From: Oscillatoriales cyanobacterium
GTDB lineage: Bacteria; Cyanobacteriota; Cyanobacteriia; Cyanobacteriales; Microcoleaceae
Direction of reading: 5' to 3'
DNA length: 64,000 nucleotides
Assembly: GCA_004292955.1 (NCBI GenBank)
Contig: RDXX01000016.1
Span: forward strand, 1 to 64,000
The notes under the pieces are model-generated. The model made no database searches and was not told the DNA's origin. It was given only the letters and a program-made list of their open reading frames with translations. Below are positions 12,018 through 42,482 of this stretch, in pieces. Position 1 is the stretch's first letter; the number at the start of each line of letters is the position of its first letter. The translations under genes were made by a program, and so were the position numbers.

Positions 12018-13373
12018 ATGTATGCTCAACAACTAGAATTATTCGATCTATTCAATCCAACTTCTACAAATACCCGATCGCAATTAACGTTCGTAGACTT
12101 ATTTGCTGGGATTGGTGGCTTTAGAATCCCTCTCGAAGAATTAGGCTGTAAATGCTTAGGCTATTCAGAAATTGATAAAAAAGCCATTCAAGTTTATCGA
12201 GATAATTTTATTAAAGATGCCAATTCAGATGAAGTATATTTAGGAGATATTACCAATCTAAATCAATTGCCTTTTCCGATAGATGTATTAGTCGGTGGTG
12301 TTCCCTGTCAACCTTGGTCGATTGCAGGTAAAATGCAAGGTTTGGACGACCCAAGAGGCAAGTTATGGACAGATGTATTTAGGGTAGTAACAGCTAATCG
12401 TCCCAAAGCTTTTATATTTGAAAATGTCAAAGGCTTGACAGAACCAAGAAATATAGAAAGCTTGAAATACATAATTGATAATTTAACATCATCTGGTTAT
12501 GTTGTCAAATACGAAGTGCTAAATTCCTATGATTTTGGATTACCGCAAGATAGAGATAGAATGTTTATAGTTGGCATTAGGAATGATCTAGAAAGATGCT
12601 GGGGATTGACATTTCCCAAACCAATCGATCGCGCGAGCAAGCTTTATGATGTGATACCAGGGATTCAGCGTAGCAATTTTAGGAAGCAAAAATTTTCACC
12701 AACCGTTTTATTTGATGGCAAAATACCCGGTTCCAGAGGCAGATTTCAAAAGCTAGATGAATTAAATGACTTTTTCTTATTTACTGATATTAGAGATGGA
12801 CATACTGCAATTCATTCTTGGGATTTAATCGAAACAACTAGCAGGGAAAAATTAATTTGTCAAACGATTATGAAAAATCGGAGAAAAAATATTTATGGAG
12901 AAAAAGACGGTAATCCTTTGGAATTTAAAGTGTTAGCAACACTAATTCCTGAGTTGAAACAAACAGAAATTGATAACTTAGTTGACAAGGAAATTTTGCG
13001 AAATGTAGATGAGAAAGGCTATGATTTTGTGAATTCTAAAATATCTTCAGGGATTAACGGCATTTCTAAAATTTTCTTACCTCATGCAGAGGCGATCGCA
13101 ACTTTAACTGCAACTGGAACTAGAGACTTTGTAGCAACAATCTCGATTGAATGTCAAGAGCCCGCAGCATACAAGGAAACATTTATTCGGGAAATTTATG
13201 AAAAGAAAAACTTTCAACCTCTAACTGCACAGGATTACGCAAAATTGCAAGGATTTCCCGAATGGTTCAAGATTGATGACAATGAAAATACAGCCAAACA
13301 TCAATTGGGTAATGCTGTATCAATTCCTGTGGTTTACCATTTAGCCAAAGCATTACTCGAAATTATTTTGTAA
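12018..13373 (+). CDS. DNA (cytosine-5-)-methyltransferase
   Basis: The 451-residue C5 methyltransferase has motif I FVDLFAGIGGFRIPLEELG (about residue 25), motif II around YSEIDKKAIQVY, motif IV VGGVPCQPWSIAGK with the catalytic Cys at about 98, motif VI AFIFENVKGL, motif VIII (QDRDRMFIVG) and motifs IX-X at the C-terminus ending QLGNAVSIPVVYHLAKALL. The variable region between VIII and IX is long (about 200 residues), giving sequence specificity that cannot be read by eye. It starts 10 bp after the DUF5615 gene. No restriction endonuclease gene is visible next to it. Its last ~50 bp are duplicated at 14034-14085. Confidence 0.93.
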   Translation: MYAQQLELFDLFNPTSTNTRSQLTFVDLFAGIGGFRIPLEELGCKCLGYSEIDKKAIQVYRDNFIKDANSDEVYLGDITNLNQLPFPIDVLVGGVPCQPWSIAGKMQGLDDPRGKLWTDVFRVVTANRPKAFIFENVKGLTEPRNIESLKYIIDNLTSSGYVVKYEVLNSYDFGLPQDRDRMFIVGIRNDLERCWGLTFPKPIDRASKLYDVIPGIQRSNFRKQKFSPTVLFDGKIPGSRGRFQKLDELNDFFLFTDIRDGHTAIHSWDLIETTSREKLICQTIMKNRRKNIYGEKDGNPLEFKVLATLIPELKQTEIDNLVDKEILRNVDEKGYDFVNSKISSGINGISKIFLPHAEAIATLTATGTRDFVATISIECQEPAAYKETFIREIYEKKNFQPLTAQDYAKLQGFPEWFKIDDNENTAKHQLGNAVSIPVVYHLAKALLEIIL

Positions 13374-15661: not shown

Positions 15662-17023
15662 TCATCTTTGCACATACTGTTTCATCACGGGATTCAAACT
15701 AAACAAAGTTATCTTTTCATCTTCTATTGCATCCAATAAAAACCGATTTCCCAGAGATCGCACTGCATTGACTATTTCTGACGGGGAAAATGGTATTTTG
15801 TTGAAAAATTGCGACACACCAACGGGTTCAGGTTGATTAGCCAGGTGAATCATCACTGCCAACTCTGCCGGAGTCAAACGCCCAAAAGGTTGAGATAATT
15901 GAAATTGCAGCGATTCATCTAAAATCGGCATTTCGCACTGCAAAAACTCCGCAACTCTCCCCCCAAATAACTCTCGAATCAGGGTTGCAGTCAACTCCAA
16001 CCACAGAGGATTGCCTTGATAAATATCAATCAAAGTTTCCCATGTTTCCTCATCGGATAACTTTTGGGAGTTCAAAATCTCTTTAGCTGCTACTCCTAAA
16101 CTTCCCAATACAAAACATCGCACGGGACGATTATCTTTTGATAATCTGGCAATTTCTCTGGGTTTTTCCCAACTATTCAATATCAAACAACTTTGATGAC
16201 AAACTTCGGCAATAAGTTTAAAAAATAACTGATAATCTTCATATCCAGTTTTATATTGTCCCGCGAGTTGTCCGCTGCTAAAAAGCATCTGTACGTCATC
16301 GAGGACAATCAGACATCGATATTTTCGCAGGTAATCGAGGAGTTGGGAAATTTTGGTTTCGATGTTTTGGGGAATTTCGGATGGTTGGGAAAAGATTTGC
16401 AGCAGGTTGGTGAGGGTTGCGTCTAGGGTTGGGGAAAAGCGGAGGCTGCGATAGATGACGTAATCGAATTGGGTTTTGATGCGATCGATTAGGCTTAGGG
16501 AGAGGGTTGTTTTGCCGATTCCGCTGATTCCGAGGAGTGCAATGAGGCGTGTGCGATCGCGCGTTATCCTGTTTTCGAGGGTGGAGAGTTCAGAAGTGCG
16601 ATCGAAAAAGGTGAATATTTCCGGTGCGTCGCCTAAGTCTATGTGGAGTTGTTTAGGAGTTTGTGGGGAGTTTTGGGAATTTGTTGGACTTCTCGCCCTT
16701 TCTTGGCAAATATTGACGTTATTAATTTCTACAAAATTCTTGCCTATAGGTGATGAAATATTGTAAATTTTACCACTATCTAATATTGCTCGAAAATTTC
16801 TTTTAGTAATATCTTCTCCGAATCCCTCTGAGAGTATTTTCCATAATTCCGAACCAATATCTCTGGTATGACCTTCGCTGGAATGAGTCTCTTCAGCAAT
16901 TTGTGGGTATGTCCGACCTTGGAATGTCCCTTCAAGGATAGCTTTTTGCAGATAGTCTATATGTTCTCCCGTCTTCGCGAAGATTAGTTCGTCGGCGAGT
17001 TTTAAGACTTCTGCGATGTCCAT
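15662..17023 (-). CDS. NB-ARC ATPase with N-terminal vMAP-type HTH
   Basis: Residues 1-85 of this 453-residue protein (DIAEVLKLADELIFAKTGEH ... DIGSELWKILSEGFGEDITK) match the helix-turn-helix domain found at the N-terminus of many cyanobacterial conflict ATPases (vMAP-type). Walker A GISGIGKTT is at 165-173, Walker B CLIVLDDVQM at about 230, and a GLPLWLEL-like GNPLWLELTATL motif follows. It ends after a winged-helix segment without the sensor repeats (WD40 or TPR) often present, giving a short STAND protein. The stop TGA is at the edge of a palindromic repeat, so the gene may once have been longer. It is divergent from the GTPase/WD40 operon. Confidence 0.8.
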   Translation of the reverse strand: MDIAEVLKLADELIFAKTGEHIDYLQKAILEGTFQGRTYPQIAEETHSSEGHTRDIGSELWKILSEGFGEDITKRNFRAILDSGKIYNISSPIGKNFVEINNVNICQERARSPTNSQNSPQTPKQLHIDLGDAPEIFTFFDRTSELSTLENRITRDRTRLIALLGISGIGKTTLSLSLIDRIKTQFDYVIYRSLRFSPTLDATLTNLLQIFSQPSEIPQNIETKISQLLDYLRKYRCLIVLDDVQMLFSSGQLAGQYKTGYEDYQLFFKLIAEVCHQSCLILNSWEKPREIARLSKDNRPVRCFVLGSLGVAAKEILNSQKLSDEETWETLIDIYQGNPLWLELTATLIRELFGGRVAEFLQCEMPILDESLQFQLSQPFGRLTPAELAVMIHLANQPEPVGVSQFFNKIPFSPSEIVNAVRSLGNRFLLDAIEDEKITLFSLNPVMKQYVQR

Positions 17024-17065
17024 AAGTCAGTCGTGTGCTGGGATTTGTCGTATTATATCCGATCT

Positions 17066-17134
17066 TTCCGACATTTCCGACAAGATTCCGACATTTCCGA
17101 TCTGCTTGTCTGAGGAAAGTCCCGACATTACCGA
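17066..17134. promoter_or_regulatory. Direct repeats TTCCGACATTTCCGA in divergent promoter
   Basis: TTCCGACATTTCCGA occurs exactly at 17066-17080 and 17086-17100, a 20-bp period (about two helical turns). A degenerate third copy, CCCGACATTACCGA, is at 17121-17134. They lie in the 188 bp between the divergent NB-ARC and GTPase start codons. Binding by the NB-ARC protein's HTH or another regulator is an inference. Confidence 0.5.
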
Positions 17135-17211
17135 TATACAAGAGTTACCTTTTGCTAGACAATATATACAAATACTTAATAATTCTTCATTATTCCTCTA
17201 ATTGGTCAAGT

Positions 17212-18390
17212 ATGAATACTTATACAGTCATCATGCTAGGGCCACGCGGCTCAGGCAAAACGGTATTTTTAGCTAGTATGTACAATCAGTTATGTACCCA
17301 AGGGGAAGGAGGCTTTTTTCTGGAGCTTGAAAGTGTAGAAAAAAGCAAACAATTACACGATATTTATACACAAATAGCTTTTGAAGAAAAGTGGCCACTT
17401 GGAACACGACGCAGCGAAGTATCAGAATGGACTTTCACTTGTCGCGTACAAACGAAGGATCTGCCTATCTATCCAGCTTGCAAGTTCACCTATTTAGATT
17501 ATGCAGGTGGTTTGTTAACTGACCAGACAGACGAAGATGATCCGAAATTTGATGAGCAAGTCAAGAAAGCAGATGCTTTACTTGGCTTGCTGGATGGTCA
17601 AAGACTTTGTGCGTTGATGCAAAATGAAAAACTAGGCCAAAAGTGGGCAGTCAACGAGCTACCTAGAATTCTCAGCATCATGCAAAAAACTGGCAAACCG
17701 ATCCATTTTATAATCAGCAAGTGGGATATTGTAGAAAAGAAATACACCCTCGAACAGATACGGGATTGTTTGCTGAAAGAAATTCCACATTTTAAAAATT
17801 TAGTCTTTAATTATAACAAGGCTGGAAAACCAATTAGATTAATTCCTGTGAGTGCAGTGGGTAAAGACTTTGTTACTATGAAACCAGATGGCAGTATGGA
17901 AAAAAATCTGAACATATTGCCCCAACCCTTTCAAGTAGAAATTCCTTTAGCTTGCATCCTGCCCGATTTAATTCAAGCTGATTGCAAAGAGGCCATAGAC
18001 AAAATGAGAGAAGAACTTAACAGTCCGATCGAAGTTAAGGCAAATCTAAAATGGTGGGAGCAAGTGGGTCAAGTTGTTGGCGGAGGGCTAAAAGCAGCGC
18101 AAGACATCCTACCTATCCTAGGGGACTTATTCCTACCTAGAAAATATACAGCCTTGCAGGATGTAGTCCTAAAGATGGTTGAATTTGCTAGTGAATATGC
18201 GGAAGCACCAGCCAAGCAAAAGCAAGAAGCAGCAGATAGAAGATCCGAAGAATTAAGTAAGGAACGAGAAGAATTATTTAAGAAAGTAGAGGATGAAGAA
18301 ACGGCTTTCAAATACGCTCTTAATTGTTTCCTATCTGTTCAAAATGACCTTTATCGCAAATTTCCAGAATCAGATTTAAAATTGCCATGA
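17212..18390 (+). CDS. TRAFAC-type GTPase of a conflict-system operon
   Basis: The 392-residue P-loop protein has a G1/Walker A motif LGPRGSGKTVF (residues 9-19), a G3-like YLDYAGGLL (about 95) and a G4-like SKWD in HFIISKWDIVEKK (about 168), followed by a helical or coiled-coil C-terminus rich in K/E. This is the layout of the GTPase subunits of predicted bacterial NTPase conflict systems. The ATG at 17212 is chosen because the Walker A starts 9 residues in; an open frame upstream (from 17035) would translate the promoter repeats. It overlaps the WD40 gene by 4 bp. Confidence 0.75.
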   Translation: MNTYTVIMLGPRGSGKTVFLASMYNQLCTQGEGGFFLELESVEKSKQLHDIYTQIAFEEKWPLGTRRSEVSEWTFTCRVQTKDLPIYPACKFTYLDYAGGLLTDQTDEDDPKFDEQVKKADALLGLLDGQRLCALMQNEKLGQKWAVNELPRILSIMQKTGKPIHFIISKWDIVEKKYTLEQIRDCLLKEIPHFKNLVFNYNKAGKPIRLIPVSAVGKDFVTMKPDGSMEKNLNILPQPFQVEIPLACILPDLIQADCKEAIDKMREELNSPIEVKANLKWWEQVGQVVGGGLKAAQDILPILGDLFLPRKYTALQDVVLKMVEFASEYAEAPAKQKQEAADRRSEELSKEREELFKKVEDEETAFKYALNCFLSVQNDLYRKFPESDLKLP

Positions 18391-19826
18391 AAAATACTAC
18401 AGCTTGGAGTTTTTTGGTTGGTTGTAATCAGTCTCTTGACTACCGAACAGTGGTCGCCCCAAATTTCATGTGTGAGTCTGGTATAGCTGGTTTACTTGCT
18501 AGAGTAACAGAAGGAGACTTGACGGAAAAAGGAACAGCATTCTACCGAGAAATTCATAACTCTAAAGTCGGAGATATAACTTTGATTTTCCGAGTAATAG
18601 AGGCAATAGCAGAAGATACTGGCATTTCAGGTAACGGCGTTCTCAAAGACCTTTTTGGTAGAGAAATTTATTTAATAGAAGGCATCGCTCTAAAAGGAAT
18701 AGTGCCAAATATTGTGACGACTGCGAACAATCTGGAAGAAGCTCACAAGCGGGTTTTAGGAGATTATAGTAAGTTTTGGGAGGCTGAGGATTCGGTTTCT
18801 GCTGTTGCTTCAGACTCTTTTACATTGCAGATCAAAGGAGAAGAAACGGGTTTAAAATATAACAAACTTAAGCCTTACGTCGCAGGTAATAAGGTTGCAG
18901 CTACTAAGTGGGAGCGCCTGTATCCAGAACCACAACGTTTTGAAGGTGCAATTCACTCTATTGCAATTTTTCCAGATGGAAAAAATATTGCTATCCGATA
19001 TGGCGATCGCAAAATTGTTGTTTGGAGTGTGCAGGACAAACAAGAACTCTATTCCTTGTCAAATTTAAGGGGGCTGACAGGAGGGTATCCCACTCCGATC
19101 GCGATCGACCCCACAGGGCATTTCCTTACAACTGCTATGATTGAGAACATCGATCAAAATAAAGTCAAAGTGTGGGACTTGGATGCAAGGGAACATAAAG
19201 ATATAGGAAACTTAGGAATAGGTTTGGCTCATAGAGTTACATCAGTAGCCTTTACCCCCGATAGTAAAACAGTTATTATTGGGAGTGCTGATAGTAGGAT
19301 TAAGTTGTTAGATGCTAGAGCAGAAGGGCTAGAAATTGGTACACTGTCAAGCCATGCTGGGCAGGTAAAATGTCTGGCTGTTGATTTGAATAATTGGTTT
19401 CTTGCTAGTGGGGACAGCAAGGGAGAAGTTAGACTCTGGAATTTACGAACTCACAAACAAGTTATACTTATTCAAGGACATTCACTGCCTGTTAATTCAC
19501 TAGCTTTTAGTCCAGACGGTCAAACGCTTCTTAGTGGAAGTGATGACCACACAATCAAGTTTTGGAATGTAAAAACAGGCGATAATTCTAATGTTTTGGA
19601 ATTCGATTATGACATTACATCAGTAGTTTTTAGCTCTGATGGGAATTTGTTTGCAACTGGAGACTACGGCGGTAATATCCAAATTTGGGATTTCCAAAGT
19701 AAGAAAGATATTTTTAAGGAGCGCGTACATTCCGCAGCAGTTACTTCAGTAGTTTTCAGTCCCGACGGGCGTACTCTGATTAGTGGCAGTAAGGATAGTA
19801 CAATTGCAGTGTGGCAGCAAAAATAG
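18387..19826 (+). CDS. WD40 propeller protein with novel N-terminal domain
   Basis: The 479-residue protein has seven WD40 repeats from about residue 190 to the end, for example GHSLPVNSLAFSPDGQTLLS and VTSVVFSPDGRTLISGSKDS, enough for a single closed propeller. The N-terminal 185 residues (WSFLVGCNQSLDYRTVVAPN, then FMCESGIAGLLARVTEGDLT, YREIHNSKVGDITLIFRVIE) are a separate domain I cannot assign. The ATG overlaps the GTPase stop (ATGA), so the two are translationally coupled and probably act together. It may be the sensor or adaptor of the GTPase. Confidence 0.8.
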   Translation: MKNTTAWSFLVGCNQSLDYRTVVAPNFMCESGIAGLLARVTEGDLTEKGTAFYREIHNSKVGDITLIFRVIEAIAEDTGISGNGVLKDLFGREIYLIEGIALKGIVPNIVTTANNLEEAHKRVLGDYSKFWEAEDSVSAVASDSFTLQIKGEETGLKYNKLKPYVAGNKVAATKWERLYPEPQRFEGAIHSIAIFPDGKNIAIRYGDRKIVVWSVQDKQELYSLSNLRGLTGGYPTPIAIDPTGHFLTTAMIENIDQNKVKVWDLDAREHKDIGNLGIGLAHRVTSVAFTPDSKTVIIGSADSRIKLLDARAEGLEIGTLSSHAGQVKCLAVDLNNWFLASGDSKGEVRLWNLRTHKQVILIQGHSLPVNSLAFSPDGQTLLSGSDDHTIKFWNVKTGDNSNVLEFDYDITSVVFSSDGNLFATGDYGGNIQIWDFQSKKDIFKERVHSAAVTSVVFSPDGRTLISGSKDSTIAVWQQK

Positions 19827-33488: not shown

Positions 33489-33537
33489 TGGAAGATGTAG
33501 AATATAGCCTAATGCAACAACCGCATAAAGGTAGGCT

Positions 33538-36500
33538 ATGTCACAGCATGATTCTTCTCTCCCAAAGTCGGCAATTAGAGACAACCGTCATCGCGGAACT
33601 GTGGGCAATTTTTTGAAAGCCAAGGTCGAGAAAAACTCAACCCTATCCATTGTTTCTGCTTACTTTACAATTTATGCCTTTGATGCTTTGAAGGAACAAC
33701 TTCTAGGTATTAAAAGCTTGAAATTTTTGTTTGGTGAACCGCGCTTCATCAAGTCCCTTGACCCCAGTAAAACCGATAAAAAGGCGTTCCAAATTGAGGA
33801 TCAGGGCTTGCAGCTACAGAATCGGTTGCAGCAAAAACGGGTTGCGAAAGAATGTGCAGAATGGATTGAAAAAAAAGTCCAGATACGGTCGGTCAAGCAA
33901 TCTAATTTACTGCACGGCAAAATGTATCACATTGCTCATAACGGAACTGAAAATGCTATTATGGGCAGTTCTAATTTTACCATGCGGGGACTGGGATTAG
34001 GTAGGAAAAACAACAATATTGAACTCAATTTAGAAGTAGATAGTAAACGGGATACCCGCGACCTTAAAGCCTGGTTTGATGAACTCTGGAATGATGCCGA
34101 ACTCATCGAAGATGTCACACAAGACGTGCTGCTGTATCTAGAGCAACTTTACCAGAATAATTCTCCTGAGTTTATCTACTACAAAACTCTGTTTCATATC
34201 TTCGAGACATTTCTCGATGACCTAGAAAAAAGCGATATTCTCAGCGAACAGCTACACCTATTTGATACAGAAATCTGGAAATCTCTATTTGAATTTCAAA
34301 AAGACGGAGTTAAGGCAGCCATCAATAAAATCCGACGATATAACGGGTGTATTATTGCTGACAGCGTTGGTTTAGGTAAAACATTTGAAGCTCTCGCGGT
34401 GATTAAATATTTTGAACTTCGCAATGAAAAAGTTTTGGTTCTTTGTCCCAAAAAACTCCGCGATAATTGGACTGTATATCTAGCACAAAACAATAGCGAT
34501 CTCAATCCTTTGGTTAAAGACCGCTTCAACTATACAGTCCTGTCTCACACCGACTTGAGTCGTGACTCTGGTTACTCTGGGGACATTAATTTAGCAACGA
34601 TTAATTGGGGTAACTACGACTTGGTAGTTATTGATGAATCGCACAATTTCCGCAACAACATCAAGAGCAAACGGGACGAATCTGGCAATCTAATTAGAAA
34701 GAGCCGTTACGAAAGGCTGATGGATGATATTATCAAGAGCGGTGTCAAAACTCAGGTGCTACTCTTATCAGCAACTCCGGTTAACAATGATTTAAAGGAT
34801 TTGCGGAATCAACTTTATTTTATAACAGAAGGTAGCGACGCTGCGTTTAGGGAATCGCTGGGAATTGTTAGTCTGCGCGATACACTAGCTGATGCTCAGC
34901 GGAAATTTACCAAGTGGGCAAAGAAAAGTCGCGATCGCAAAACTAGCGAACTCCTGGAAGAACTAAGTTCTGCTTTCTTCAAACTGCTTGACGAATTGAC
35001 GATCGCCCGATCGCGCAAACACATTCAAAAATACTACAAAGATGCGATCGCCCAATTAGGCGGCTTTCCAGAACGGCTCAAACCCATCTCGGTATTTCCT
35101 GAGATTGACCGAGAGGGTGAGTTCATGTCCTACGAACAGCTTAACAGTGAAATTTCTAAATATCAACTCTCCCTATTCAACCCTTCAAAATATGTCCTGC
35201 CGCCATACCGTTCGGCTTATGAAAATAAAAGAGTGCAAAACTTCAAACAGAGCGATCGCGAACGCTCTCTGATCGGCATGATAAAGGTTAATTTTTTGAA
35301 ACGCCTGGAAAGCTCGGTGAATTCCTTCGCTATCACAATGCAGCGGACTATTGACAAAATATCCGAGTTACAAAAACGACTCGAATCCTTCAAGAATTGG
35401 CAAGACGAAAACGCGGTAATTGATTTCAACTATTTAGAGTTTGAGGCAGAAGAAGACGAGGATTTACGAGCGGCGTGGGAGGTTGGCAAGCTAAAAGTTA
35501 AAATGCTGCACCTCGATGTCGAAACCTGGTTAAAAGACCTAAAAAACGACAAGAAACAGCTTAAACAAATCTACAATTCTGCCCAAAGCATTTCTGTTGA
35601 ACGCGATGCCAAGCTGGCTGAGTTAAAATCACTAATCGCCGAGAAAGTCAAGCATCCTACGACTAACAAGCATGGTCAACCAAATCGCAAGGTTTTAGTC
35701 TTTACTGCCTTTGCAGATACCGCAGTCTATCTCTACGAAGGATTGCGGGAGTGGGCTACATTAGACTTGAAAATTAACTTAGCTTTGGTGACTGGTGGTT
35801 CGGCGAAAAATCAGACTACCTTTGGCAAAAATGAGTTCAATCACGTCCTGACAAATTTTTCACCTTTCGCCAAGAAACGCGCCCAAATTCCATCTATGCG
35901 GCAAGACGGCGAGATTGACCTATTAATTGCCACAGATTGTATATCAGAAGGGCAAAATTTACAAGATTGCGATTATCTGATTAACTACGACATCCACTGG
36001 AACCCAGTCCGAATTATCCAGCGGTTCGGTAGGTGCGATCGCATTGGTAGCCCCAATCACACCGTACAATTAATCAATTTTTGGCCGACAGAGGACCTGG
36101 ATCAGTACATCAATCTGAAAAATCGAGTAGAAGCACGGATGGCTTTAGCGGACATAGCTGGTACATTTGAAGATAATCTGCTGGAGGTAAAGGAGATTCA
36201 AGAACTAATTGAGAGTGATTTGAAATACCGCGACAAGCAGTTGCTGCGATTGAGAGACGAGGTGCTGGATATCGAAGATTTCACCGAAAGTGTCGCCCTA
36301 ACGGAATTCACTCTCGATGATTTCCGAATGGAACTAGCCAAATACATTGAGAGCAACCGCAAACTACTCCAAGATGCTCCTTTAGGACTTTATGCAGTAG
36401 TTCCAACTAACTCGGAGTACCCGATAATTGCTCCTGGCGTAATTTTTTGCCTCAAACAAAAAGGCGATTCTCTTGATAATAAAACCGTCAACCCGCTGCA

Positions 36501-36837
36501 ACCATATTTTGTAGTTTACGTGCGCGAAAATAAGGAAGTGCGATTGAGTTTTGCTCAACCCAAACAAATACTTGAAATATATCGGTTGCTGTGCGCGGGA
36601 TGTACGGTTCCCTATGAAGAGTTGTGCAATTTGTTCGATCGAGAAACTAATAACGGATTTGATATGAGTTTGTATAACGATTTGCTCAAGCTGGCCGTTG
36701 ATTCAATTGCAGATATTTACAAGAAGCGGAGCATCGGCAATCTGCTGTCTAGCCGCCGTGCTGTGTTGGTTGAGCAAGCGCATCAGGTTAAAGCAACAAC
36801 GGATTTTGAACTGATTACCTGGCTGGTGATTAAATGA
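33538..36837 (+). CDS. PLD-nuclease/SNF2-helicase fusion (defence-type)
   Basis: The 1099-residue protein starts with a phospholipase-D-like domain carrying one HKD-type motif, [13 protein letters not shown] followed by [11 protein letters not shown] (about residues 122-152). An SNF2-type SF2 helicase follows: Walker [14 protein letters not shown] (about 274-286), DESHNFRN (about 366), [11 protein letters not shown] (about 410), and motif [16 protein letters not shown] (about 826-839). Such PLD-SNF2 proteins are typical of restriction-like phage-defence loci. It overlaps the next gene by 4 bp (ATGA), so the two are translationally coupled. No DNA methyltransferase is encoded in this operon. 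Confidence 0.88.
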
Positions 36838-39800
36838 GCGTCAGCGAACAACAAGCCAAAGCATCTATCAATCAAGCTTTAAGTAGTTTTGCAAAGGGAA
36901 AACTAGCGGATAACGCCCGTAATTTGTTCTTTACTCTTGGATACCGCAGTGATAAAACTCTTCCGTTTTATCCTAATAGTTCGGAGAATTTTATTGCCGA
37001 ATTTGACATAGATCAAAAGCTCAACTCCCAAAAAGCTCTCTTAGAGGAATGGCTGTCGGTTGATTTTCTCTTCCAGTTTACCGGGACAGAAATTGCAGAT
37101 AATGACCAGTTTGTCGAATTTGATACTAGCAGTGGTGAGAGTGCCTTTTTTACTTCGTACTTGTTTTTCGCGATCGCACTGCGGAGGAGTGCGTACACTA
37201 TAGAACAACTTGACGGGATTATCCGCGAGATTAATAAAATTTTACCGATTCCCGCGATCGTTCTTTTTCAGCATGGAGAAACTCTGACTTTATCCATTAT
37301 CAACCGTCGCCAACACAAACGCAATGAATCTGAAGATGTATTAGGAAAAGTCAAACATATTAAAGATATCCCATTCGCCAGTCCGACAAACTCTCATTTA
37401 AAAATGCTCTTCAATATTTTTTTGACAGAGTTGTATGAAAATCATGGCTTTAGCAACTTTGACGAATTTCATGAAGCTTGGCATAAAACTATTCCTGACA
37501 ACATCAAATTTAAAAAAGATCGTATACTGTCAGATTCGCTTCGGGTTTACCTGCAAGAAATCGGTCGAATTCCCATGCTCAAAGCTGACGAAGAGATTGA
37601 ATTAGCTCGAAAAATTGCTGAGTTAGAGTTAGACGGATACCGAAAAGCTAAAGACAAAATGGTAGAGTCGAATTTGCGGCTGGTAGTCTCAATTGCTAAA
37701 AAATATCAAAATCGAGGGCTGGATTTCTTAGACTTGATTCAGGAGGGAAATATCGGTTTAATCAAGGCTGTAGAAAAGTTTGATTGCACGAAGGGAACCA
37801 GGTTTTCTACCCACGCATATTGGTGGATTCGTCAGGCAATTACGCGGGCTATTGCCGATCGATCGCGGACTATCCGCCTACCAGTTCACGTTTATGAAAC
37901 TATCTCGAAGATTAAGAAAACTACCAAACAGCTTTCTCAAGAAATCGGCCACAAGCCTACCGAAGAAGAAATCGCTACTAAAATGGAGATGACAATTGTA
38001 AAAATGCGATTGGTTATTCAATCGGCTAAATCTATCATTTCCTTAGATACTAAAATGGGTGATTATGAAGACTGTACATTGGGAGAGTTGATTGAATTCG
38101 ATGGAGAAACACCAGAAGAACAAGCATCTAAAAAATTGTTTACCGAAGATTTAGAAAGCGTTTTAGATACTCTTACCCCTCGACAACGTGACATTATTCG
38201 GATGCGATTCGGATTGGATGACGGCAGCGAGAAAAGTCTACAGGAAATCGGCAATATATTTAATCTTACCCGCGAGCGGATTCGGCAAATTGAGGGTAAG
38301 GCTTTACTAAGATTGCGCCATCCCAACCGCAACAGCATTTTAAAAGATTATATTCGCCCTACACCAGTTTATCAAACTGAGACAAAAAGACCGATCGCCA
38401 AACCGAGCCAGCCCAGACAGTTCAATATCTCAGAAAACTTGTCTCCCAGCCGCGACACTTTCTTACTGGAGCCTGTTCGTGATAAAATAGTTGAAACAGC
38501 TAATACGACCGAACCATTAATTCCTTTTAACAATTTCATAGAAAAATCAAATATAGAACAAACAAAGTTGGCTCAGACTCACCTGTCAAGTGCCGATGGA
38601 AGTCAAAACAATCTCACCTATGCAAATTTGAACGAGCATAATTTCCACATTGCCGAACTGACAGAAAATGACTTAAATAAAGCGATTAAACCGATGAAAC
38701 AAAATTCAGCAGACTTACTCAAACAACTCACCGCACTAGAAGATGTTTTTTCCCAATTAGAGAAACGGCTGTCAGAGGCGAGTCGAAAGTTGCTAAACCC
38801 TGGTATACCTATATCTCAAAAGCTGATTCAAGAACTTGACGAGTCCCATAAAAAGTTTATTCAGCTTCGCGACAAGGTGCTAGAAGTGGCTGAATATTTG
38901 GCAGTATCGACAACGCTGAAAGTTGAAGAAATTTGTTCTTTAACAGATATCAGGTCTGTACTTGAGCGTGTGGATTTGGCCGAGAAGCAAAAAAGTGCGA
39001 TCGCCCTTGTCCGCGACTCTGCTTTGAGGGTTCTGGAACGAATTTTAGCGATCGCCCATCGAGTAGAGAGCAATTTTCAGTCATTGCTGGAATGTCAGGA
39101 AAAAGCCCGCGAACTTCAACGCGCCATCTCCGAATCCCACAAGTCTGACTTGCATCCCGACACCCAAATCTTGGCTGATGGCAATCATCCATTCTGCAAA
39201 CTTCTAACACTAATTTCAGAATGGGAAGAAGCAGATGACGAGCATTTAGCTTCTTTACAGGATGCCGTAGCAGAATCATTTGGAAGAACTCTGGCGATGG
39301 CAGCAGTAAGAGGAAAACTGATGATCCAGGCGGAAGCAATACCAGATTTGCCTGCTGTTTCTACTAACAATAACTTAGACGAAACTTCCTTAGTTGATGA
39401 GCCGGAATCTGAAACTGTTCCTGTTGTCGAACAACCACCAGTAGCAGAGTTGAACTCGGTATTGACAGAGGAGGCGATCGCGCAGCCAACCCCTGAATAT
39501 ATCCCAGATATTCCACCAACAGAACCGCCAACCACAACTCAGATTGAGCTGCCAAATTCTGAAAATAAGCAAGGAAAAAAAGTTGAAAATCAGGCTGATT
39601 ATACCAGAATTTGCAGTGTATTGGAGCAAGGCGATATCCTGACGGCTAAGGAATATATATCTATGCTGCAAGAGCGGCGATCGCTTCCTGAACCAGAGGA
39701 AAAGAGAGATGCTTTTAAAGACTTCTTTGGGCATAAGTATGCTGCGATCGAAAAAGTGCTTGAGGAGTGCGATCGCGATCGACAAAAAAAGCAAGAGCTA

Positions 39801-42482
39801 ATTCCCAATATTTCCAAAGGAAAAAGTATCGCCAAAATCCAGATACCGCAGGGGGCTCAAGCCAAAAAAGCCGCTGAAATGCTAGACGCTTGGTTTGCAG
39901 CCAAGGGAAGGAAGCAAGAAATCACAGAGAAAGATGCTCGCCAAATTCTCAGCAACCTCGGTTTTAACATAACATCTCTTACATTTAAAAAATCAGGACA
40001 AAATACCTGGATTGACGTTAAAGCTGAGCCGATATTTGACCAAAATCGCTGTCCTGTGTCTGCCTATGGTTCAGCCGCGAAGGGTCATTACCGCATTCTT
40101 TGCGTATGGGATAGACCGAACGAACAGGATCTCCTCAATGCCGTTGGAGAAACTGCTCTTGGAGGGCCGGTCTTCGTCTTTCATTTTGGGCGAATGACCG
40201 TCAAGAGACGCCGAGATTTGGCTGATTTATGTCGGCAGCGTCGGAGCACTTTCATTGTTATAGATGATGTGCTGATGCTCTATCTTTGCGGAGAACAAAA
40301 AACACGCCTACCTGTATTGTTTGATTGTACCTTACCCTTTACTTTCCTAGAACCGTATAAAACCGCAGCAGGAGAGGTTCCCCCTGAGATGTTTTACGGG
40401 CGAGTACGAGAACGGGAATCCATAATCGATCGAGAAGGTTCTTGTTTAATTTATGGAGGCCGCCAGTTAGGTAAAACGGTTTTGCTTAAATATGTACACC
40501 GGACTTTTCACGCAACCGACGCGGGCAGGAACGCCCTATTTTTGGATATCAAAGAAATTGGACGCAAGCAACTGTTAGATAAGATTTGGCATCTACTAAA
40601 CGAAGAATTGGATAAATTAAAAATTCCCGATACCAACCGGCGAAATTCCGTCCGCGAAAGCAGCTTGCAGCGGATTAAAAGTTGGCTAGAATCGGACAAT
40701 CAGCGGCGCTTTTTGCTGTTGTTGGATGAGGCAGATAATTTCTTGGAAGCTGATGGTAAGGAGGATTTCCTGCGCTGCGATGAGTTCAGAAAATTAATGA
40801 CGGAAACTCACCGACGTTTTAAGGTGGTCTTTGCCGGATTGCACAACGTTCTGAGAACCACTAGACAAGCAAACCATCCGCTGGCTCACTTTGGCGCGCC
40901 TATCTGCATTGGGCCTCTGCTGAATAATGGTGAAATGCGAGCCGCAACAGCTTTGGTAGAACGTCCGCTGGCTAGTCTTGGCTATCGTTTTGAATCACCA
41001 AATTTAATCCCGCGCATTCTGTGGCAGACTAACTATTATCCGAGCTTGATTCAACTTTATTGCGAGCAGCTACTCAAGCACATCACTAACCCAGATATCC
41101 CTACTTTCGATCCTAAAATTAGTCCGCCTTATGTGATTACTTCTCGCCATGTAGAAGAAGCTTATCAAAGTCAAGACCTTCGCAATAATATTCGCGATCG
41201 CTTTAAGTTGACACTGGGACTCGATCCGCGCTACGAGGTAATTGCCTACTCGATTGCTGATGGTTCTCAGGAGAATGAAACAGGCATGGAGGATGGGTTT
41301 TCTGTATTTTGGATTCGCGAACAAGTCTTATATTGGTGGTCTGAGGGATTCGCGGGAAGGTCATCGGAAGATGAAATTCTTGCTTTACTAGAAGAAATGA
41401 TAGGATTAGGAGTTTTACGAGAAAGCAATCCAGGTTACTTCACTCTGAGAAATTCTAATTTAGCCTTGCTTATGGGTACGCAACCAGAAATTGAAGCAGA
41501 ACTTCTGAGACACCGCGAACCTCCACATGAATACGAACCTGCTACTTTTCGGTCTCCTCTTTTGGTTAAAAATAAAGCTGATTCCCAGCGCAGTCCTTTA
41601 ACTGTTAAACAGGAATCAGAACTTCTGCTCCGCGAGTACGGTGTCTCTATTATATTTGGGTGCCAAGCCGCAGGAATTGACGATTTGAGAGTTTTTATGG
41701 AAGCAGCATTTAGTAAGAAGGATTGCAAAGTTCACTATTTAGAAAATCTCTCAGATCGATCGGATTTCAGCCAGCGTTTGACAGAAATTAGTAACCGTCG
41801 CAAGAAAGATACCACGACGCTCGTTGTTGTATCAGCCACCACTTCTTGGAGTAAGGATTGGGTTGATGAGGCAATTAAGAAAATCAAAAGATTGAAAAAA
41901 GAGGACTCATTTCTCCAGCTTGTTTTTGTCGCCTATCCTCAGAAGGCTTGGCAGTTAGTTATTCATAATTGGACAGGTTTTGATTCCTTTAAGGAACTGA
42001 GATTTTTAAGTCTCAAACCTTGGCACGATGCCGCGCTGCGACATTGGTTGGAAGATGCCAATTTGCCGAGCAAACTAGAAGTTAGAAATAAGATTACGGC
42101 AGTTACAGGGAATTGGTCAAACCTCCTGCAAGAATTCTATCAATTTGCTCAAGCTAATCCGCATTGCTGGCAAGATTCCTTGGCCCAACTGAAGAATCAA
42201 TTTAATAAATCTGACAAATTAATTAATTCAATGGGTTTTGACGGTTGCGAACCTCAAAGAAAACTGGTGATGAGAACTTTAGCTGAATGGGGAGAAGCAG
42301 TCGCGATTGAGGTATTAATTGAGGTTCTTGATGATGTACCGCCTGAAGTTGTCAAGCAGACTCTCAGATGGGCTGAACTCCTCAGTCTTGTCTCGCATTT
42401 AGGAAATCAGAAGCAAGATGGTAAGGATTACTGGCAGATTGACCCTGTAGTTGGTCGTCTGCTCGAATCTATGGCAGAGTAA
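36834..42482 (+). CDS. Giant fusion: Eco57I-methylase-like N-domain, sigma-70, STAND ATPase
   Basis: This 1882-residue ORF is unbroken. Residues 1-230 ([44 protein letters not shown]) resemble, from memory, the N-terminus of large Eco57I-type methylases. Residues 234-505 form a complete sigma-70 unit: [12 protein letters not shown] (1.2), [18 protein letters not shown] and [16 protein letters not shown] (2), [14 protein letters not shown] (3), [18 protein letters not shown] and [14 protein letters not shown] (4). After a coiled-coil (about 626-690) and a Pro/Glu linker (842-921), a domain at 1002-1190 leads into an ATPase with Walker [12 protein letters not shown] (1207-1217) and Walker [12 protein letters not shown] (about 1294). 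A degenerate second ATPase-like unit (about 1600-1800) and a winged helix finish it. Overlaps the helicase gene by 4 bp. Confidence 0.85.

Follow-up and report, generated by a model that had tools for sequence, protein, structure and literature searches.

What does a housekeeping-type sigma factor do inside a giant ATPase? The question is raised by a 64,000-nucleotide stretch of DNA from an Oscillatoriales cyanobacterium (contig RDXX01000016.1; hereafter the window), in which a single gene joins an adaptor domain, a sigma-70 factor, and an AAA+ ATPase, directly behind a gene for a nuclease-helicase with PLD (HKD) and SNF2 domains. On the comparisons below, the whole can best be seen as a restriction-like adaptor/PLD-SNF2 system in a variant that bears a sigma factor and that in this genus is also fused to a giant ATPase. 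The features concerned are as follows, with the domain borders in the giant protein set by ourselves.

33504-33539, no strand: inverted repeat ATAGCCTA/TAGGCTAT; its second arm spans the start codon of the helicase gene
33538-36837, forward: PLD(HKD)-SNF2 nuclease-helicase gene, presumed effector (1,099 residues; PADLOC C3a139)
36834-42482, forward: giant adaptor-sigma-ATPase gene (1,882 residues), with an ATGA overlap with the helicase gene stop
36834-37532, forward: N adaptor, residues 1-233, DUF4391-like by hhalign and common to Eco57I methyltransferases
37533-38354, forward: sigma-70, residues 234-507, with Pfam regions 1.2-4 and 73% identity to the genome's own SigA
37731-37781, forward: sigma region 2.2, core RNA polymerase-binding motif (motif comparison)
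37803-37835, forward: sigma region 2.3/2.4, melting motif kept, with His for the usual Tyr (motif comparison)
38268-38297, forward: sigma region 4.2, -35-reading motif RERIRQ (motif comparison)
38355-39995, forward: middle regions (residues 508-1054), lengthened in four orthologues by 587 residues located before about residue 906
39996-41273, forward: AAA+ ATPase, residues 1055-1480 (AAA_22), with Walker A at 40455-40478 and Walker B at 40713-40736
41274-42479, forward: C-terminal region, residues 1481-1882, conserved in relatives, no profile match

An earlier note on this DNA had described an unbroken 1882-codon frame containing a complete sigma-70 and a P-loop ATPase. This was borne out: the gene starts with ATG and has no internal stop, and the frame, the Pfam domains, and the quoted motifs were all verified. 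The description needed two corrections: a conserved 233-residue adaptor precedes the sigma factor, and the STAND label, taken up below, is not established. An assembly join or frameshift was rejected because the whole fusion lies in one frame in the window and in six other genomes (G001, which is locus L023, and L021, L022, L024, L027, and L028). By the earlier note, homologues with only separate genes or mutated core-binding residues would have counted against its idea; the orthologues retain the fusion, and the core-binding motif is intact. Three of the seven proteins have 1,882-1,886 residues and four have 2,447-2,457, the latter through the extra residues listed above. L025 (a contig of bin 341R), L026, and L030 are cut off by contig ends, and G002 (L035) is truncated. 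When residues 1055-1882 were searched against 98 genomes, 7 of the 29 same-genus genomes, including that of the window, carried a copy of at least 90% identity. Across the phylum, the ATPase was found at E <= 1e-40 in at least 5 of 386 genomes and PLD-SNF2 in at least 37 of 377, both tallies being lower bounds with at most two candidates scored per genome.

The sigma domain is complete. Regions 1.2 (residues 234-263, 9.6e-13), 2 (276-346, 5.2e-23), 3 (355-430, 1.2e-19), and 4 (443-496, 4.3e-18) are all above their Pfam cut-offs. In NCBIfam, the top match is to cyanobacterial RpoD (E 1.5e-138; PRK07406.1, 462.2 bits, below the cut-off of 500), and Sig70-cyanoRpoD likewise stays below its cut-off (353.9; cut-off 384.5). 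Among the seven sigma matches in the genome, which include the giant protein itself, the nearest to the fused domain is SigA (73% over regions 2-4), four others are 46-54% identical, and the last is 29% identical. By these similarities, the fused domain is a SigA-like, primary-type sigma-70.

Walker A (GGRQLGKT) begins at residue 1208 and the LLLLDEAD motif at residue 1294. The only ATPase model above its Pfam cut-off in the giant protein is AAA_22 (E 3.2e-9). The STAND label given in the earlier note was not confirmed, as nSTAND6 (E 0.0069, 16.9 bits) falls below its cut-off of 27.7 and no STAND or nSTAND profile passes. Judged by eye, the C-terminal region is perhaps a degenerate second AAA-type domain. 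Of 20 giants, 18 fit the Walker A pattern GGR[QR]LGKT and 16 the DEAD pattern. Some relatives have no sigma; their similarity begins at about residue 616-664 (L031, L033, and L037) or only in the later middle region (L029 and L038). The ATPase tree interleaves sigma-bearing and sigma-less giants, with sigma-less G052 beside the Microcoleus set (83.2/79). Behind four of the sigma-less giants lie frames of about 377-387 residues with no convincing Pfam match (L037:12024-13154, L038:11832-12989, L029:11385-12521, and L033:11296-12456), and a 1,935-residue DEAD/Helicase_C protein is encoded directly upstream of one of them (L033:24-5828, in G078).

The helicase matches the PADLOC candidate defense protein C3a139 'HKD+Snf2' over nearly its full length (E 1.4e-129, model positions 18-946 of 948; the tool supplies no cut-off), and SNF2, Helicase_C, and PLDc_2 are all above their Pfam cut-offs. 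Its catalytic motifs are intact, namely an HKD-type motif at residue 126, Walker A at 274, and DESH at 366, and all three occur in each of the seven sigma-associated PLD-SNF2 partners checked. The ATGA overlap between the two genes recurs in six orthologues and in G002. Neighborhoods were examined at 30 of 42 PLD-SNF2 places, mostly with 1.5-kb flanks, a reach at which a more distant sigma could be missed; a sigma adjoins PLD-SNF2 in G000, G001, G285, G156, G065, and G159, and a remnant does so in G090. G262, which lies outside the 37-genome tally, also has a PLD-SNF2 gene.

A possible link between the sigma factor and the helicase is the adaptor. At E <= 0.001, residues 1-233 matched 14 of the 386 genomes searched, with four of the matches weak and confined to about residues 121-228 (G039, G044, G186, and G352). 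Ten adaptor neighborhoods, and then two more, were examined. In L064-L069, the adaptor adjoins a PLD-SNF2 gene whose product is 46-71% identical to that of the window (the L065 helicase frame has one stop). Here its cargo is an Eco57I N6-methyltransferase in L064, L065, L066, and L069 (E 1.5e-30 to 9.6e-44); in L067, the gene is split and the methyltransferase, also of Eco57I type, lies in a separate piece, while L068 was outside the methyltransferase scan. Two small-genome members of the phylum (L070 and L071) instead encode the adaptor joined to sigma-70, once and twice, respectively, beside PLD-SNF2. The N adaptor resembles stand-alone DUF4391 proteins (hhalign probability 95.8, E 7.4e-9). 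Against Pfam DUF4391, the window adaptor is not listed at E <= 1, orthologue L022 scores 17.0, below the cut-off of 29.9, and relative L069 scores 38.2, above it. Among solved structures, the adaptor and ATPase profiles found no relative (ATPase profile A1 had no PDB sequence match at E <= 1), and the middle-region profile had PDB sequence matches at chance level only. In one adaptor-methyltransferase (L064:7563-12374), a REP-type tyrosine transposase domain lies in frame (Y1_Tnp at 4e-7 passes its cut-off; NF047646 does not).

The same alternation appears in a second clade of PLD-SNF2 proteins, which share about 26-33% identity with the window's helicase and are accompanied by another adaptor, here called N'. 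The similarity of N' to N is weak (hhalign 76%, E 2.3e-5), and N' shows none to the DUF4391 set (0.3). N' is joined to an Eco57I methyltransferase in L151 and L152, both scanned, and, by similarity to that of L151, on Calothrix, Microcystis, Planktothrix, and (interrupted) Nostoc plasmids. It is joined to sigma without the ATPase in L148, L199, and L198 (the last with a single stop in its sigma) and to sigma with a giant ATPase in Brasilonema plasmid pBOCT2 (L036), L062, and L032. Planktothrix agardhii plasmid p4 (L191:4469-14342) holds in one row an N'-methyltransferase, a 434-residue protein with no Pfam match at 1e-5, an N'-sigma, and PLD-SNF2. An internally deleted N'-methyltransferase precedes the sigma in L148; remnants of both kinds of gene persist in L202, and cut-short copies of both on a Nodularia plasmid. 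In total, N' occurs in 11 of 377 genomes: four with sigma (one interrupted), one with the remnants of both, three with methyltransferase, and three with short methyltransferase-type fragments. By these comparisons, related adaptors carry either sigma or methyltransferase as alternative cargo, and the two kinds occur together or apart. Plasmid records gave no match to N and eight cyanobacterial matches to N'. Two IMG/VR phage scans found no relative. In the phage collection, the L070 protein matches 260 records, none over 80% of its length, and the 15 matches listed all start after the adaptor; PLD-SNF2 matches five phage records.

The trees suggest more than one capture of sigma, and no completed approximately unbiased (AU) test rejects the single-origin groupings. 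The G065 sigma groups with its host's other sigmas (94/94; 98/89 in a second tree), which we take to be group-2 factors, and the L070/L071 sigmas are placed apart. The AU test gave p 0.239 for one origin of all 16 fused sigmas, 0.427 for the giants with L070/L071, 0.123 for the giants with G065, and 0.656 for the giants alone as one clade, a slightly better fit than the free tree. The reference sigmas came from a search matching 145 of 146 genomes, nearly all via ordinary sigmas; host_L110 was omitted from both trees and five near-duplicate references from the AU-test tree, and the Planktothrix, Nodularia, G262, and G035 sigmas are outside all trees. Separately, in L097 and some further small-genome members of the phylum, open frames of some 990-1,040 residues contain a sigma-70, perhaps a sigma with a very long N terminus or a frame on another reading.

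Does the fused domain still look like a working sigma factor? The signs are mixed. All 20 adaptor-linked sigmas examined have the core-binding motif D[LI]IQxG of region 2.2, with its E changed in G040 and G065. The WW pair, presumably E. coli W433/W434 with a role in promoter opening, is altered in 6 of these 20 and in none of 28 reference sigmas, comprising SigA, other sigmas of the hosts, and housekeeping sigmas of small-genome members (Fisher p 0.003, a value that treats relatives as independent and includes some identical rows among the 28). The replacements are LL in UBA9251, GW in Phorm6 and 341R, WL in G156b, HW in Planktothrix, and CW in Nodularia; such differing residues argue for at least four separate changes, although Phorm6 and 341R could have theirs in common. 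In the window copy, WW, Q, T, and RERIRQ are all retained, and with them the -10- and -35-reading residues; the Tyr preceding WW, which we take to be Y430, is His, as in L028. Of the 18 members long enough to include the -35-reading region, 17 have the motif R-E-x-[IV]-R-Q (G156b has GESINQ; Nodularia and G262 fall short of the region).

Between the window genome and G001, nonsynonymous divergence (dN) is 0.0587 in the fused sigma and 0.0028 in SigA, at a synonymous divergence (dS) of 0.136 and 0.137, respectively; dN/dS is therefore 0.43 versus 0.02, about 20-fold apart in this one genome pair. In a comparison of 21 pairs, the ratio was 0.41 for sigma, 0.22 for the ATPase, 0.19 for the helicase, 0.32 for the adaptor, and 0.56 for the first middle region. 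The fused sigma is maintained, under a constraint that is relaxed but real and much weaker than that of SigA. Silent divergence has local peaks at adaptor residues 81-120 and sigma residues 321-360. A recombination test of the pairwise homoplasy index (PHI) type was at its floor (p 0.002) in every segment, so the recombination signal is not special to sigma.

We tentatively favor a restriction-like defense system in which the sigma would be a polymerase dock or bait and not the driver of a regulon, a reading that we consider possible rather than probable. The PLD-SNF2 protein would be a translocating nuclease effector with the giant protein as its partner, and the DUF4391-like domain would be the adaptor to this effector, carrying a DNA-reading methyltransferase in sister systems. 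The sigma-70 could dock the complex on core RNA polymerase, or bait phage proteins that bind or displace sigma. The AAA+ ATPase might then act as a switch that responds to disturbed docking, or to polymerase on foreign DNA, and licenses the nuclease. In favor of this reading are the ATGA overlap, the alternation of methyltransferase and sigma on the adaptor with both in one row on plasmid p4, the core-binding motif kept throughout next to an altered WW pair in some members, the raised dN/dS of the fused sigma, and the intact motifs of the helicase. A more specific version, which we regard as unlikely, would be a counterpart of the 'integrated decoy' of plant immune receptors, in which phage take-over of RNA polymerase by an anti-sigma or a phage sigma triggers DNA cleavage and sigma and methyltransferase are interchangeable recognition modules. 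If the dock or bait is real, a bacterial immune system would be guarding RNA polymerase, a main phage target, and would be wired to a nuclease.

Several observations weigh against a dock or bait. From its kept residues, the window copy could be a working sigma. We scored regional conservation as the share kept of residues invariant in 14 SigA proteins. The nine Microcoleus-type rows keep 0.82 in region 2.2 and 0.76 in region 2.3, whereas region 2.3 is kept better than 2.2 in the N' giants (0.86 versus 0.76), in L148 (1.00 versus 0.67), and in L070/L071 (0.92 versus 0.72), as it also is in four ordinary host sigmas (0.83 versus 0.74). The idea of a sigma that docks but cannot open promoters is thereby weakened. 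The WW changes may be decay, several members being broken or cut short (G002, L198 with its stop, Nodularia, and L202). No PLD-SNF2 gene was seen near L199 or L032, where the contigs end close by. Finally, eight other window genes compared with PADLOC gave a sole match, of the repeat type (HEAT-ARM_XIII, 2.4e-16, to a WD40 protein), so that a defense role would follow by association only.

The earlier note had read the protein as one that could switch on defense or stress genes. Its complete sigma and P-loop ATPase in one polypeptide stand, and the switching finds no support in the adaptor that is common with methyltransferases beside PLD-SNF2 or in the WW pair altered in 6 of 20; nor is it refuted, since the window copy keeps WW and the -35 motif. 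An ATPase-gated alternative sigma along the lines of that note, which would bring RNA polymerase to particular promoters such as those of defense genes or of its own operon, seems to us somewhat unlikely. It would fit the four complete regions, the core-binding, WW, and promoter-reading residues of the window copy, and the well-kept region 2.3 of the N' and small-genome groups, and the available text of two papers describes immune systems that use sigma-driven transcription, namely Calp (PMC12751052) and ECF-linked systems (PMC8195603). It sits poorly with the WW contrast, with a dN/dS 20-fold above that of SigA, and with an adaptor that otherwise holds DNA methyltransferases beside a nuclease-helicase.

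That shared adaptor would suit a targeting module, in which sigma replaces the DNA-reading part of the methyltransferase and steers PLD-SNF2 to promoters or initiating polymerases on incoming DNA; the -35-reading motif kept in 17 of 18 members and the two peaks of silent divergence are in line with it. Yet sparing of self-DNA without a methyltransferase would go unexplained and the recombination signal extends to all segments, not only the peaks, and we rate targeting as distinctly unlikely. We give still less credence to a passenger captured by chance and now drifting in a system run by adaptor, ATPase, and helicase. Raised dN/dS, broken members, and sigma-less ATPase relatives are what such decay would leave, but a dN/dS of 0.41 over 21 pairs is well below 1, and seven genomes retain the sigma within a single frame, with a further occurrence of sigma in the other adaptor lineage. 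The dock-or-bait reading could be put to the test at Planktothrix agardhii plasmid p4, Brasilonema plasmid pBOCT2, and Microcoleus sp. FACHB-61, and adaptor-methyltransferase and adaptor-sigma proteins with the same kind of helicase offer a clean contrast.

In the window, the gene pair is flanked by an ABC1-kinase gene and a UvdE gene, and one side or the other, mostly both, recurs beside the orthologues, with the exception of L024 (CAWBG506), which is located elsewhere. Both arms of the inverted repeat are intact in five of seven aligned loci, including CAWBG506 at its different locus, and the repeat is a possible control site. A promoter scan upstream of the pair found none, an uninformative result with 0.5 expected by chance in that stretch. 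Elsewhere in the window, positions 15662-19826 have the appearance of a further conflict-type module, in which the gene for a double-GTPase-like protein (DO-GTPase1, 6e-7) overlaps a WD40 protein gene and an NB-ARC-like ATPase, recognized by eye, lies on the opposite strand. A frame at 12018-13373, within a stretch low in guanine and cytosine, resembles by eye a C5 cytosine DNA methyltransferase.

How does this system compare with those already described? The earlier note knew of no described family with this architecture, and none turned up in the accessible text of our literature search, which covered open-licence PMC articles; the available part of PMC7641849 held nothing relevant. As far as these searches show, an ATPase of 1,900 to 2,450 residues with a primary-type sigma inside it has not been described before, and this would hold even if the sigma proves to be an ordinary regulator. 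DISARM was rejected (DrmD NF038317, 160.8; cut-off 610), as were the BREX-related DUF499-centered systems, DUF499 not being listed at E <= 1 for the giant protein.

The same effector build occurs in HKD(PLD)-SNF2 restriction-like systems (PMC12839542 and PMC10853773), there with an N6-methyltransferase and an ATPase. According to the accessible text, BREX-related Type-2 systems combine an HKD-SNF2 helicase, an N6-methyltransferase, and a DUF499 ATPase, with a SIGMA-HTH in BrxL (PMC12839542), and PbeA/CXC-ABC systems combine HKD-SF2 helicases with methylases, with a sigma-like helix-turn-helix (HTH) in some DndH (PMC10853773); a full sigma-70 is not mentioned in that text. Also comparable are plasmid PLD-SNF2 operons, whose helicase is homologous to that of the window (41-45% identical among the 40 matches listed of 122 records). 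At seven of seven such loci, in Desulforapulum, Methanomethylovorans, two Acinetobacter, Levilactobacillus, Methylotuvimicrobium, and E. coli, a DUF4391 gene directly follows PLD-SNF2 and precedes the gene for a site-specific DNA methyltransferase, and six of the seven have a DEAD helicase. These operons differ from the window in that the adaptor is a separate small protein and the annotated stretches contain no sigma and no giant ATPase.

Single parts also recur elsewhere. A relative of the giant ATPase stands behind PIWI-RE in Azospirillum, with another recognition module and no sigma: on an Azospirillum oryzae plasmid (L039:1197-10964), a 3,256-residue protein joins a pPIWI-RE/RNaseH module (1.2e-54) to it, and the preceding gene is annotated as a further large ATP-binding protein. 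TRADD-N proteins use a sigma-type domain as an exchangeable module of conflict proteins, but this is only an HTH like that of extracytoplasmic function (ECF) sigmas on an unrelated core, as far as the available text of PMC8195603 goes.

A further likeness is to MzaA of the MZA anti-phage system (NF041931, PDLC02203), a large defense-operon protein that likewise ends in a full sigma-70 of primary type; the match to the window lies in this sigma portion (E 1.3e-93 and 2.8e-61). Only model positions 443-716 of 726 match, at 315 bits versus the equivalog cut-off of 800, and assignment to the MZA system was rejected on that cut-off. No Mza match was found in the helicase or in the eight other window genes scanned, which were not every neighboring frame. 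We know of no ATPase fusion or PLD-SNF2 partner in the MZA family. The available text of PMC9523054 places mzaA, a sigma factor, in few of its systems. MzaA is, on that text, a precedent for a sigma factor in a defense operon.

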